Below, in pieces: positions 22,498-34,413 of a stretch of 36,702 bases of DNA (the first letter of the stretch is position 1; the number at the start of each line of letters is the position of its first letter). The stretch is from Crenothrix polyspora (GTDB lineage: Bacteria; Pseudomonadota; Gammaproteobacteria; Methylococcales; Methylomonadaceae): assembly GCF_900163745.1 (NCBI RefSeq), contig NZ_FUKJ01000458.1:1-36702 (forward strand). Direction: 5' to 3'. The notes under the pieces were generated by a model, which ran no database searches, had not been told where the DNA came from, and saw nothing but the letters and a program-made list of their open reading frames with translations. A program made the translations under genes and the position numbers.

Positions 22498-25212
22498 CTA
22501 GGCAATAATATCAATATTGGCAGCTGTCAAAGCCACGCCGGATCCAATGCCAACTAATTGAATAGGGAAAAATTGGTCACCGCTGCCATCTCTATCAAAC
22601 GATAAAATACCGTTGTCCTGGTTGTAAATAAAACGCTGCTCTGCTGTTGGTGCTTCTCCCTCGAAGGAAAATTGCTTAACAGTCAGGTTGACGATACCGA
22701 AAGCCGATGCAGAAATGGCAATAACATCGTTTTGATCCAAAGCAAAATCGCCAATTTTATCTGGGAAAGCATCAGGGGCAGAATTAAACACAAAGCTATC
22801 CGCGCCGACTGAGCCATATAAGGTGTCTCTACCTAATCCCCCTATTATCATGTCATCATTTAAGCCGCCGAAAATATTGTCATTACCGCTGCCGCCATTA
22901 AAGGTGTTTTTTGCACTACTGTTTTCTGCGGTCAGATAATCGTTACCGTCACCGCCTATCATGACAACTGTGCCGGTGGATCCGGAAGCATCCATAAAAT
23001 CATTGCCAGCGCCGCCGTCCAACGTATTTTCCGCTGCGGACTGTTTAGCGTAAATGCTATCGTCGCCTGCGCCACCCAAAAGCTTATTAGCGCCACTGTT
23101 TGCAGAAATACTTAGTTTGTCGTTGCTCTCACCGCCATCCAAAATATTGTTGCCCGAAGCGTTATATACTTCTATCGTGTCATTGCCTGCATCACCATTA
23201 AAGGTGTTATTGCCTGTGCTATTGGAGGACGATAAGTTATCGTTACCGATGCCGCCTTCAAGGATGTTATTTCCGGATGCATTGGCATCAACGTAAAGCG
23301 CATCATCGCCTTCTCCGCCTGACAGTGCGTTATTGCCTGCGCCCCCATTCAGTATGTCATTGCCAATCCCGCCTTTTAGGGCATCATCAAAGTTGGTGCC
23401 GGTAATTTTCAGCACCTCAATATTTGCAAATTTGATTTGATTGGTACCGGCAACAACGGTGCCGCTTGCGCCATCGCCTACATTGATAAACATGTTCAGC
23501 GCAGTGTTGGCATCGGTATAGTCGACAATTAGGGTATCAGATTGATTGCCACCATCCACCGTTTGTGTGACTAAAGTGGCGGCATTGCCAGCTGAAAGCG
23601 TAATGCGGTCATCGTCTTCTCCACCAAACAGCGCATTAGTGCCTTTTGGAGCGTCCAGGATTAAGCGATCACTACCACCCATGCCATAGATTTTATTATC
23701 GCCACTGGTATTGTTGGCCACAATATAATCATCACCAGCGCCGCCATTCAACACGTTATTACCGGTGCTGGAATCAGCGCGTATAGAATCGTTATCTGCA
23801 CCACCCGCAACAGTGTTGTCACCGCTAGCTGCGAAAAGGTTAAAGCGGTTGTCTCCTGCCGCGCCACCAAAATAATTGTTACCCGTAGACTTTATGGCGG
23901 AAAAACTGTCAAGTCCAATACCGCCATACAAGAAATTATTGCCCGCTGAATTATCTACGCTAAGGGTATCATCCCCGGCCTCACCGTACAGCTTGTTACT
24001 GCCTTCATCGTCGCTCAGTGTATCGTTATCATCGCCGCCACGTAAAGTGTCGTTACCGGCTCTACCGTCCAGGGTATCTTCTCCTGCGAGGCCCAACAGA
24101 ACGTTATTGCCAGCATTTCCGTTAATGATGTTATCCAGGGCATTGCCATTGCCATTGGCAACAGCACTTCCCGTCAAGGTAAGGTTTTCGAAAAGGGTTT
24201 CTAGCGTAAATGAAAAACTGGCATTGATGGTATCAATACCACCGGCATCGCTACCAAAGCCGTCGTCTTCGCTGGCATTATCGTCTACATTATCAAGAAA
24301 ATAACTGTCGTTACCGCTGCCGCCTAGCATGGTATCGATACCGGCTCCGCCTACCAGATAGTCATTACCAGCACCGCCTTTCAGGGTGTCATTACCGTCT
24401 CGACCATACAATATGTCATTGCCTGCCGCGCCGATGAGTATATTATTATCATCATTACCACTTATAATGTTGTTAAGCTTGTTACCCGTACCGTTAACGG
24501 CATTGCTTCCTGTTAATGTCAGGTTTTCAAACAAGTCGCTTAATACCGATGTAAAAGGTGTATTAATGGTATCAATACCACCGGTATCAAGACCTGCGTC
24601 AGTAGTTTCAATGGTCTGATCATCAATATTATCGACAAAATAGCTGTCGTTACCTGCGCCACCACGCATTTCGTCTGCACCGGTTCCACCAGAAAGCAAG
24701 TCATTCCCGTCACCACCCTGCAAAACATCATCTCCGGCCATGCCGTAAAGATCATCGGCACCAGCTCCGCCAATCAATGTGTTACTGTTGATGTTACCGG
24801 TAATTTGATTATCCAGCTCATTGCCAGTGCCGTTGATTGCACTTGTTCCATTCAATTTGAGGTTTTCCAGAAAACGTCCCAATGTAAAAGATACCGACGA
24901 ATTCACTAGGTCGGTGCCACCATCGTCGATTCCTACAACCGTTTCTTCGCTAATGGTATCACCCAGGCTGTCGACAAAATAAATATCGTCCCCAGTGCCA
25001 CCAAGCATTTTATCTTCTCCGATACCGCCATTTAAGGTGTCATTGCCTGCTAATCCAGTTAGGATGTCATTACCTTCTAATCCAGTTAGGGTATCATTAC
25101 CCTCTAATCCAGTTAGGGTATCATTACCTTCTAATCCATTAATGATGTCATCATCAGGCGTACCGATTAAATTATTGTCACCGGTATCACCATTAATTGT
25201 ATTTATGGCCAT
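22498..25212 (-). CDS. RTX (hemolysin-type) calcium-binding repeat protein, probably type I secreted
   Basis: 904 aa made almost entirely of GGxGxDxLx-type nonapeptides that fold as calcium-loaded beta-rolls. It opens with MAINTINGDTGDNNLIGTPDDD and no Sec signal, then a run of near-identical GLEGNDTLT units (residues 26-60). Residues ~78-416 contain three modules in exact 113-residue register (ENL at 116, 229, 342; YFVD/YFVD/YFLD at 78, 191, 304). The second half consists of SxGNNxLxGGxGxD repeats. The C-terminus (DKIGDFALDQNDVIAIS, SFDRDGSGDQ, VALTAANIDIIA) resembles the uncleaved C-terminal signal of type I substrates. No catalytic domain is recognisable, so it may be a surface-layer, adhesin or biofilm protein. 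GGAG lies before ATG 25212. No ABC/HlyD exporter is nearby. Confidence 0.92.
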   Translation of the reverse strand: MAINTINGDTGDNNLIGTPDDDIINGLEGNDTLTGLEGNDTLTGLEGNDILTGLAGNDTLNGGIGEDKMLGGTGDDIYFVDSLGDTISEETVVGIDDGGTDLVNSSVSFTLGRFLENLKLNGTSAINGTGNELDNQITGNINSNTLIGGAGADDLYGMAGDDVLQGGDGNDLLSGGTGADEMRGGAGNDSYFVDNIDDQTIETTDAGLDTGGIDTINTPFTSVLSDLFENLTLTGSNAVNGTGNKLNNIISGNDDNNILIGAAGNDILYGRDGNDTLKGGAGNDYLVGGAGIDTMLGGSGNDSYFLDNVDDNASEDDGFGSDAGGIDTINASFSFTLETLFENLTLTGSAVANGNGNALDNIINGNAGNNVLLGLAGEDTLDGRAGNDTLRGGDDNDTLSDDEGSNKLYGEAGDDTLSVDNSAGNNFLYGGIGLDSFSAIKSTGNNYFGGAAGDNRFNLFAASGDNTVAGGADNDSIRADSSTGNNVLNGGAGDDYIVANNTSGDNKIYGMGGSDRLILDAPKGTNALFGGEDDDRITLSAGNAATLVTQTVDGGNQSDTLIVDYTDANTALNMFINVGDGASGTVVAGTNQIKFANIEVLKITGTNFDDALKGGIGNDILNGGAGNNALSGGEGDDALYVDANASGNNILEGGIGNDNLSSSNSTGNNTFNGDAGNDTIEVYNASGNNILDGGESNDKLSISANSGANKLLGGAGDDSIYAKQSAAENTLDGGAGNDFMDASGSTGTVVMIGGDGNDYLTAENSSAKNTFNGGSGNDNIFGGLNDDMIIGGLGRDTLYGSVGADSFVFNSAPDAFPDKIGDFALDQNDVIAISASAFGIVNLTVKQFSFEGEAPTAEQRFIYNQDNGILSFDRDGSGDQFFPIQLVGIGSGVALTAANIDIIA
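25045..25140. repeat. 27-bp tandem repeat in the RTX gene
   Basis: Three to four near-identical 27-bp units reading TCTAATCCAGTTAGGGTATC on the plus strand plus a 7-nt spacer, encoding GLEGNDTLT on the minus strand. The nucleotide near-identity implies recent slippage or recombination within the coding region. Confidence 0.85.
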
Positions 25213-31893: not shown

Positions 31894-32385
31894 ATGCTAC
31901 TGAAAAAACTTGTTTTATCTCTATTGCTGCTTATGGTGCTGCTAACTAACGCTACGCAGGCCGGCCAAGCAACGTTGAAACCTTTTGTACCAGGCAGTTA
32001 TCAACAGATATTAACCGAAACTGCCAAGCAGCCATTCATGCTGGTGGTGTGGTCGATAACCTGTTCGTCTTGTTTGAAAGATATGGCTTTGTTAAATAGT
32101 CTTCATAAAAGTCATCCTAAGCTTAAGATTGTCATGTTGGCGACTGATGGCGCACAGGCGAGTGCACAAATCCAGGCTACCTTGCAGAAAAATGAACTCA
32201 CCGCTGTTGAAAACTGGAATTATGCTGATGACAACAGCCAAAAGCTGCAATACGAAATTGATCCCACCTGGTATGGTGAACTGCCCAGAACGTATTTTTT
32301 TGATAAGATTCACCAGCGAGAAGGCATTAGCGGCGTATTGACAGAAGTGGATTATCAGGCGTATTTTGCGAAAATTTTAAAATGA
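31894..32385 (+). CDS. Exported thioredoxin-fold protein (TlpA/redoxin-like)
   Basis: 163 aa. An N-terminal signal peptide or anchor (MLLKKLVLSLLLLMVLLTNA, likely cleavage near TQA|GQ) leads into a thioredoxin-like domain with MLVVWSITCSSCLKDM, where Cys57 and Cys60 form a CxxC pair after the typical WxxxC strand. The cis-proline side reads GELPRTYFFDK. It therefore looks like a periplasmic thiol-disulfide oxidoreductase. A longer frame from TTG 31870 exists, but ATG 31894 fits the signal peptide. The stop overlaps the next gene by 4 bp (ATGA), so it is translated together with the Asp-box lipoprotein, the probable client or partner. Confidence 0.88.
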   Translation: MLLKKLVLSLLLLMVLLTNATQAGQATLKPFVPGSYQQILTETAKQPFMLVVWSITCSSCLKDMALLNSLHKSHPKLKIVMLATDGAQASAQIQATLQKNELTAVENWNYADDNSQKLQYEIDPTWYGELPRTYFFDKIHQREGISGVLTEVDYQAYFAKILK

Positions 32386-33632
32386 CAACCGAAACATTTA
32401 AACAGCGTGTTTTGAGCAGGGCGATATTGGCGGCTACCGTCTCGGTATTGAGTGCTTGTTCAGATATGACGGCCTTAACGCGATTAGAAAGCACAGCTGA
32501 TTCGGCGATAAATTCAAATGTGTCGAAAACTGTTTTGAGTTTTTCCGAAACGACATCTTTTGATGTTTATGTAGATAATAACCGGATACACCTGATTGCT
32601 GCCGGTATGTCATTAAATGCTGACAAGCAAGCCGTGATCCGCCATGTATATTCGGACGATAACGGTAAGCACTGGTCTGAGCCATCAAATGTGCTAATTC
32701 CTAAACCGCCGTCGATGGCTACGCGAGGCAACGATATTCAATTGGCGGTTAAGGATGATAAGTTGGTGGCTTTGTGGCAAACAACCGGCGAACTTCTCGG
32801 TATGGGGGCTATGGTCAGCGTGTATTCCCATGATGGCGGTAAAACCTGGCAAGCCAGTCCAAATCCAGCCGCGAATGACAGTGGTGATCAATCGCATATC
32901 GATATTGCGGCGGCCAAGAATGGATCATTCCACGCCGTATGGCTGGATGATAGGGACGAAAATGGCTATCAGGGTTTGCGTTATGCCCGCTCAGAAAATG
33001 CGGGTATACACTGGCAAAAATCTGTCACTTTGGATGACACGACCTGCTCTTGTTGCTGGAACAAACTAGCGTTTACGCCCACAGGTACTATCAATGTGTT
33101 GTACCGTGATATGGAAGTTCGCGATATGGCCGTTAGCCAATCTACCGACAATGGTACAACATGGCAGAAATTGAGCAGGGCAGGGGATTTCAACTGGAAA
33201 TTTGAAGGCTGTCCGCATGTCGGGGGCGGTCTTGCTTATGGCAATATTAACGGTAATACGGTAATGCACAGTGTGGTCTGGACAGGCGCGGAACACAAAC
33301 AAGGCCTGTATTATGTGCGTTCTGTCGATAACGGTAAATTATGGTCACCACCGTATAAGCTGGGCAAAATGGCAGTTCATGGGGATGTGGCGGTTACTGG
33401 CGATAAACATATTAGAGTGGTTTGGGATGAAACCGGTGCTGAGGGTAGCCGTGTGTTTTCAGCACAATCTGACGACGGTGGACTGTCGTGGTCGGTTGCC
33501 AAACAATGGTCTTTACCGAATCATAACGCGGTACAGCCACGTATTGTTCCTGCCCAGAACGGATTTTTGCTGCTGTGGACAGAAAAACAGGCTAAGCAAG
33601 CCAGTCAGCTGATGACGGTATGGGTAGAATGA
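32382..33632 (+). CDS. Sialidase-like Asp-box beta-propeller lipoprotein with CxCC motif
   Basis: 416 aa. A lipoprotein signal ends at LSAC (Cys26). Six Asp-boxes (S-x-D-x-G-x-x-W type) lie at residues 91-98, 149-156, 204-211, 254-261, 314-321 and 363-370, the pattern of a six-bladed sialidase-fold propeller. A cysteine cluster TCSCCW (222-225) and a further Cys277 in EGCPHVGGG sit in the middle blades. True sialidases need an arginine triad and a nucleophilic tyrosine, which I cannot confirm, so 'sialidase' is a fold label only. Translational coupling to a CxxC thioredoxin-like protein suggests its cysteines are redox-maintained or bind a metal (inference). Surface or periplasmic lipoprotein. 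Confidence 0.88.
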   Translation: MTTETFKQRVLSRAILAATVSVLSACSDMTALTRLESTADSAINSNVSKTVLSFSETTSFDVYVDNNRIHLIAAGMSLNADKQAVIRHVYSDDNGKHWSEPSNVLIPKPPSMATRGNDIQLAVKDDKLVALWQTTGELLGMGAMVSVYSHDGGKTWQASPNPAANDSGDQSHIDIAAAKNGSFHAVWLDDRDENGYQGLRYARSENAGIHWQKSVTLDDTTCSCCWNKLAFTPTGTINVLYRDMEVRDMAVSQSTDNGTTWQKLSRAGDFNWKFEGCPHVGGGLAYGNINGNTVMHSVVWTGAEHKQGLYYVRSVDNGKLWSPPYKLGKMAVHGDVAVTGDKHIRVVWDETGAEGSRVFSAQSDDGGLSWSVAKQWSLPNHNAVQPRIVPAQNGFLLLWTEKQAKQASQLMTVWVE

Positions 33633-33674
33633 TTTTTTCTACGAGTAAACTGATGCCCAGCAGCTTCATGCTTC

Positions 33675-33904
33675 GTAACTACTCAGTCTTTCAAAAGATA
33701 GGGTACAGCGTTTTTATCTATCCACGGAAAACACAAAAAACACAAAAAACACAAAAAACACAAAAAACACAAAAAACACGGAAAAATGTCGATGTTTTTT
33801 CACAAAAAGAATGATTACCGAAAAATTTTTGTGTCTTTTGTGCCGCTTAAAAGCGCCTACTTTTGGTTTCCGTGGACTTTTTTTAACATCTACTGAGTAG
33901 TTAC
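33675..33904. mobile_element. MITE-like element with 13-bp terminal inverted repeats
   Basis: Perfect 13-bp terminal inverted repeats: GTAACTACTCAGT (33675-33687) and ACTGAGTAGTTAC (33892-33904). Inside is a second perfect pair TCCACGGAAA (33721-33730) / TTTCCGTGGA (33867-33876). The left inner arm opens an array of seven 9-nt units. No coding capacity and no clear target-site duplication (flanks ATGCTTC and CATTCTT). The symmetric structure suggests a non-autonomous transposable or fold-back repeat. Confidence 0.65.
33723..33785. repeat. 9-nt tandem array, seven units
   Basis: Seven contiguous 9-nt units, 63 bp: CACGGAAAA, five copies of CACAAAAAA, then CACGGAAAA. The first and last units are identical and differ from the identical inner five. 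Strongly strand-asymmetric (A/C on the plus strand). Degenerate reverse-oriented units (TTTTTGTGT, CTTTTGTGC) occur at about 33826-33843. Confidence 0.9.
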
Positions 33905-33933
33905 CATTCTTCTTATCAATACAGGAATTTTTC

Positions 33934-34413
33934 ATGACAGAAATCCATGAACCCCGTCCGCCATTTCCCCCTTTTATTTTTGATACCGCTACGCAAAAAG
34001 TGCGTATGGCTGAAGATGGTTGGAATAATCGTAATCCTGAGCGTGTGGCTTTGGCGTATACCGTTGATAGCCAATGGCGTAACCGTGCCGAATTTCCGGT
34101 AGGGCGCGAGCAAATTATAGAATTTCTTACCCAAAAATGGGCAAAAGAGCACGAATACCGCTTAATCAAGGAACTTTGGGCATTTAATGGCAACCGTATT
34201 GCTGTACGCTTTGCCTACGAATGGCATAATGACAACGGTGACTGGTTTCGTTCTTACGGTAATGAAAATTGGGAGTTCGACGAAAATGGTTTAATGCGCC
34301 GCCGCTACGCCAGCATTAATGATTTAGCCATTCAAGAAACTGACCGGAAATTTCATTGGCCGCAAGGTCGTCGTCCTGACGAGCATCCAGGCTTAAGTGA
34401 GCTGGGGCTTTAA
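33934..34413 (+). CDS. NTF2-like DUF1348 family protein
   Basis: 159 aa, full length for the family. Seen: the [21 protein letters not shown] opening, [62 protein letters not shown] and the C-terminal [15 protein letters not shown], all typical of DUF1348 proteins with a SnoaL/NTF2-like fold. The fold provides a small-molecule pocket; the biochemical function is unknown. No signal peptide, so cytosolic. It begins 30 bp after the repeat element, whose right end may therefore influence its expression. Confidence 0.92.

Follow-up and report, generated by a model that had tools for sequence, protein, structure and literature searches.

The window, which is the whole stretch of 36,702 nucleotides analysed here, contains a 230-bp element located between two genes on the forward strand. 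The upstream ORF was called a BNR-repeat protein by a sequence-only reading of this DNA, and the downstream gene encodes a DUF1348 protein. The same reading counted 30 bp from the element to the DUF1348 ATG; the element does lie just upstream of that gene, and the gap is 29 bp (33905-33933). The features of the locus are as follows.

32382..33632, + strand: upstream ORF, 416 aa, putative BNR-repeat protein
33667..33674, no strand: left 8-bp target-site duplication CATGCTTC, 7/8 match to 33905-33912
33675..33687, + strand: left terminal inverted repeat GTAACTACTCAGT, tip of the longer 'B' IS66-type arm
33688..33720, + strand: B-end subterminal sequence, including GGGTACAGCGTTTTTAT at 33701-33717
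33721..33876, no strand: core, a palindromic repeat TCCACGGAAA...TTTCCGTGGA of 9-bp CACRRAARR-type units
33721-33730 and 33867-33876: inner 10-bp pair, TCCACGGAAA and TTTCCGTGGA
33728..33779, + strand: 9-bp tandem array, 5.8 copies of the unit AAAACACAA, longer than in the other family members
33843..33866, no strand: 24-bp module CCGCTTAAAAGCGCCTACTTTTGG, inserted in one core arm and including a 12-bp palindrome
33877..33891, + strand: short 'A' end, subterminal sequence CTTTTTTTAACATCT
33892..33904, + strand: right terminal inverted repeat ACTGAGTAGTTAC, exact reverse complement of GTAACTACTCAGT
33905..33912, no strand: right 8-bp target-site duplication CATTCTTC
33934..34413, + strand: downstream DUF1348 gene, 159 aa (PF07080, E 8.7e-66)

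The two inverted pairs that the sequence-only reading had described as perfect, one terminal and one inner, are both exact at these positions. The 8-bp near-duplication at the flanks, the 9-bp tandem array and the 24-bp module are additions to what that reading noted. The terminal repeats pair at 13/13 bases and form the sole perfect 13-bp inverted pair in the window whose starts lie no more than 300 bp apart. The element has a strong folding potential, both as RNA (z -5.7 for 33670-33910) and as DNA (z -4.4 for 33675-33904), in each case exceeding 200/200 shuffles. An Rfam search of the window at gathering thresholds returned no family. The element contains no transposase gene, and the sole listed same-strand ORF within it has 64 aa and a start that lies upstream.

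Elsewhere in the window, a 904-aa ORF on the reverse strand (22498-25212) is rich in GGxGxD-type repeats and appears RTX-like by eye. Its DNA has tandem repeats of 27 bp in two places, 24339-24401 and 25038-25151.

Copies in the host genome and their target duplications

The host genome assembly (G000) comprises 3.53 Mb in 467 contigs, of which the window is one, and is 88% complete. The 12-mer TAACTACTCAGT has 40 exact matches in these 3.53 Mb and its reversed control has none, whereas the inner repeat TCCACGGAAA occurs 185 times against 6 for its control. This recurrence is decisive evidence against a chance origin. The end sequence GTAACTACTCAG, allowing at most one mismatch, was found 129 times in the host genome (control 21), compared with 11 (control 17) and 10 (control 19) times in two congeners. 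The excess in the host but not in the congeners indicates that the amplification is specific to the host's own lineage, in which the family numbers about 50 copies.

Forty-one full copies with both ends were extracted, although a handful of the longest may join neighbouring ends. Most are 168-196 bp long, with a mode at 168-173 bp and a second length class at 191-196 bp that carries the 24-bp module. The 12-bp end consensus is matched without mismatch in 14 of the 41. Over the same 41 copies, the two flanks reach an identity of 0.83 when 8 bp are compared and of 0.32-0.48 for the other lengths from 3 to 12, and the flanking 8-mers match at 7/8 positions or better in 30/41 copies, compared with 3% of random flank pairs. 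The duplicated 8-mers are 79% AT. The window copy itself has a duplication matching at 7/8 positions (CATGCTTC / CATTCTTC). Dispersed copies, shared ends and sharp 8-bp target duplications together bear out the suggestion of the sequence-only reading that the segment is a mobile, MITE-like element. In addition, several contigs end inside or just past a copy (L003, L018, and L021), as is expected of repeats, which break assemblies.

These observations also bear on a different explanation, in which the segment is not mobile but an intergenic hairpin with a domesticated or regulatory role, either REP/BIME-like or a transcription terminator, kept for its effect on the expression of the BNR or DUF1348 gene. 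The strong folding and the location between genes, 29 bp from a start codon, are in line with such a role. We rejected the reading as a terminator or REP because of the target duplications, which, together with the dispersed copies, make it improbable that the element arose as a conserved regulator. Moreover, no terminator-like site was found in a scan, and the single promoter-like site is at chance level (mean of 0.9 in shuffles). The scan speaks neither for nor against the possible influence on DUF1348 that the sequence-only reading suggested. The BNR-DUF1348 gene order is retained in the congener G002, where the spacer lacks the element, an absence that also favors the MITE reading; this spacer is too diverged for base-by-base alignment, and the empty site is not base-exact. 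We therefore give the regulatory explanation hardly any credence.

MITEs are short, non-coding elements with terminal inverted repeats and target duplications, which are present in many dispersed copies and are mobilised in trans by an autonomous element (PMC10969869). The window element resembles MITEs in general in its short length, inverted ends, fixed 8-bp duplication and dispersed copies. It differs from them in that a second repeat family forms its core, and in that the core orientation and the arm modules vary among copies. The 24-bp module is present in 16/41 copies, in either arm, and in both arms of one copy (L108). Its 17-mer GTAGGCGCTTTTAAGCG, allowing at most one mismatch, occurs 43 times in the host genome including the window copy, once in the congener G001 and not at all in G002. 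The core is inverted relative to the ends in five or six copies (for example L004, L019, L093, and L112). Both the core inversion and the presence of the module in either arm would follow from exchange between the two inverted arms. The window copy, with its 230 bp, carries the 24-bp module and about four extra 9-bp units, as the usual copy has one 9-bp unit where the window copy has 5.8. The BrickBuilt MITE of Porphyromonas gingivalis is likewise intergenic and multi-copy, with inverted ends around a tandem repeat (PMC4596501). BrickBuilt is an array of a 23-bp unit, whereas the unit in the window copy is 9 bp, and the two are also set apart by the description of their ends and core (PMC4596501).

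Outside the host genome, a collection scan for the end and the core together found only L062, which is a congener MAG, and L061, a single contig from Syntrophomonadaceae. The rest of the latter contig is unrelated, and we read it as carrying TCCACGGAAA by chance next to an IS66-type end. A plasmid collection searched with the MITE consensus gave no match.

Several copies have further insertions or neighbors. A second MITE of 180-181 bp, whose ends are GGCACCCTTCA and whose target duplication is apparently at least 8 bp long, is nested at differing positions in three family copies (L001:1591-1771, L011:1633-1813, and L087:404-583). The L004 copy, at 1500-1831, holds a third inverted-repeat insert, CTTTCCTGATTAGCAAGATG...CATCTTGCTAATCAAGAAAG. 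At another locus (from L024:720 on, in G000:C225), a small antitoxin-like gene and a RelE/ParE-like gene, both identified by eye, lie within about 70 bp downstream of a left MITE end; this arrangement suggests a truncated MITE copy beside a toxin-antitoxin pair.

IS66-type ends and the likely mover

The GTAA-initial ends and the 8-bp duplications pointed to the IS66 family. Three IS66-family loci from the same taxonomic family as the host (L214, L215, and L219) are 1.70-1.77 kb long, each with one IS66 transposase (NF033517 / PF03050), and have ends that are GTAACTACTCAGCG or a one-base variant of it. We take these single-ORF elements to be of the ISBst12-like type. The first 12 end bases, GTAACTACTCAG, are common to the window element and the IS66 elements L214, L215, L246, L250, and L251, and perfect 8-bp duplications flank L219 (GTTTTTTC), L246 (TATTTGTT), and L251 (AAAAATAA). 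A transposase with the same ends, which the sequence-only reading had suggested looking for, thus exists in the same taxonomic family and is of the IS66 type. Similarly, published tables give repeats of 8 bp for ISPpa5a and ISPpa7, which belong to IS66 (PMC3281130). The window family has in common with the single-transposase elements (L214, L215, L219, L246, and L251) the ends and the AT-rich 8-bp duplications. It differs from them in length, which is 170-230 bp as against about 1.7 kb, and in lacking a transposase gene. Sequence sharing is confined to the ends, and the likeness to known IS66 elements stops about 12-14 bp from the end.

Because IS66 elements from the host's taxonomic family share both the 12-bp ends and the 8-bp duplications, an IS66 enzyme of the single-transposase type is the likely mover. 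We consider it very likely that the segment is a non-autonomous IS66-type MITE of composite build, moved in trans by an IS66-family transposase. A search for the IS66 transposase (PF03050) found none in the host genome, an absence that is not firm at 88% completeness, and a genus-wide search found only a fragment. The partner transposase would either have been lost or lie outside the assembled part of the genome, and the element is probably immobile at present, since no IS66 transposase was found in the host genome.

The lack of such a gene in the host assembly would also fit a mover from another family. Several IS families, such as IS1595, ISL3, and IS256, make 8-bp duplications, and if one of them had moved the MITE, the GTAA ends would be coincidental. 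Against this stands the match of 12/12 terminal bases to actual IS66 elements from the host's taxonomic family, which also make 8-bp AT-rich duplications, which makes a mover from outside IS66 very improbable.

Probable separate origins of shell and core

The sequence-only reading had noted the inner repeat as nested symmetry within the element. The inner repeat is indeed present, but it is more than the symmetry of one element: it belongs to a repeat family of its own, members of which are found outside the element as well. The core arms, CCACGGAAARCACAAAAAACACGGAAAA, are inverted arms composed of 8-9-bp CACRRARR units. Most of the core loci read in the host genome have IS66-type ends, and a minority lack them (L084, L089, L090, L096, L098, L100, L108-L111, and L117). 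These free cores span TTGTCCACGG...CCGTGGACAA with variable middles, and they are flanked by no direct duplication at any length (identity 0.26-0.40). The congener G002 contains many free cores (L040, L043, L046, L049, and L053) and hardly any IS66-ended copy. The congener G001, in turn, has IS66-ended MITEs without a core (L202 and L203), which are flanked by the perfect 8-bp duplications ACCAATTT and CAATTTAG. The GGGTACAGCGTTTTTAT sequence of the B end is found at the same offset in 3/4 ends of L202 and L203 (P 0.001-0.01). Moreover, at one locus (L119) an IS66-type copy sits inserted in a free core. Shell and core are therefore separable, each being found alone in the host genome or its congeners.

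The prevalence of cores inside IS66-type ends in the host genome could also mean that the core was original to the IS66 mini-element and that free cores derive from MITEs whose ends decayed away. We regard this as unlikely. The free cores have a regular boundary of their own and no 8-bp duplication, they are numerous in G002 even though that genome has almost no IS66-ended copies, and G001 has end-bearing MITEs without the core. In addition, the same arm design brackets GxxExxY genes, as described below.

The window element is thus seen as a mini-transposon built from two repeat systems of differing insertion behaviour, one with an 8-bp duplication and the other with none, and as each half is found alone in sister species, the history of the element becomes readable. 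We infer both the identity of the mover and the order of assembly. In the simplest history, an ancestral core-less IS66-type mini-element would have taken up a palindromic repeat of another family (the CCACGGAAA core), and the composite would then have multiplied to about 50 copies in the host's own lineage. Its GTAACTACTCAG ends would be recognised in trans by a single-ORF IS66-family transposase, whose insertions would fall in AT-rich DNA between genes and duplicate 8 bp of the target. The expanded 9-bp unit and the 24-bp module, both present in the window copy, would be later changes, as core inversion and nested insertions would be in other copies.

GxxExxY nuclease genes and palindromic arms

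The sole GxxExxY gene (TIGR04256/PF13366) of the host genome (L124, G000:C361:745-1092) lies between TTGTCCACGGAAAACACAAAAGGCACGGAAAAA and an approximately matching inverted copy of it, and the GxxExxY gene of G002 is bracketed likewise. In a class-wide sample of 274 genomes, from which the best-scoring rather than random GxxExxY loci were taken, the best loci have inverted arms of 8-9-bp units whose sequences differ (CACAGAGG, CACGAAGG, CGCCAAGA, GCGCAAAGA, and others). Among the GxxExxY loci read (L123-L126 and L143-L171), bracketing of this kind, with degenerate tandem units, is seen in most sampled genomes. When the upstream flank was locally aligned with the reverse-complemented downstream flank, the median score was 26, and 27/34 best-scoring GxxExxY loci scored above 20, the maximum reached by 66 shifted positions in those loci. 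DUF1348 loci, used as control, scored 9-14. These loci resemble the MITE core in having arms of 8-9-bp CACRRARR-type units, and in the host genome the arm sequence is nearly identical. They differ in that a nuclease gene lies between the arms and IS66-type ends are lacking; the free cores, for their part, have no target duplication.

Triplet repeats of CACRRAG are found in 20/37 genomes with a GxxExxY gene and in 25/237 others (P 8e-9), and 13/17 genomes with at least 10 CACRRAG repeats have a GxxExxY gene (P 2e-8); both P values are uncorrected for phylogeny, and the genomes include related species. The reversed control gave 0 in all listed genomes. GxxExxY proteins have an invariant G-x-x-E-x-x-Y, an invariant E-x-K and an invariant Q, along with a nearly invariant D. 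Judged by sequence, the motif D...ExK...Q is a complete PD-(D/E)XK nuclease set. Sequence comparison gave no solved structural relative, the best matches being non-significant (T7 endonuclease I at E 0.31, and E 0.28 in a profile comparison). A PADLOC search gave no match, and the literature, most subscription journals aside, held no description of the end or core sequences and no link of GxxExxY to repeats.

By analogy with the REP/RAYT system, the core may belong to a widespread class of CACRRARR-like palindromes partnered by the GxxExxY nuclease, a proposal that we put forward tentatively and hold at somewhat below even chances. Gene-bearing units would be autonomous and gene-less units dependent, and the window MITE would represent a second route of spread via IS66 ends. 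The association is what we observe, and a functional partnership is our hypothesis; the main alternative is that the gene hitchhikes between repeats. Under the partnership, this orphan nuclease family would be a candidate partner of the common, unexplained intergenic palindromes of bacterial genomes, and a role open to testing would follow for the repeats as well as for the genes. The GxxExxY-repeat link is a more novel lead than the MITE, whose novelty lies in its composite build.

One further locus (L125, G003:C62) has its GxxExxY gene amid several close palindromes of the CACGCCAAGGCGCCA type, which have another unit sequence and the same architecture.
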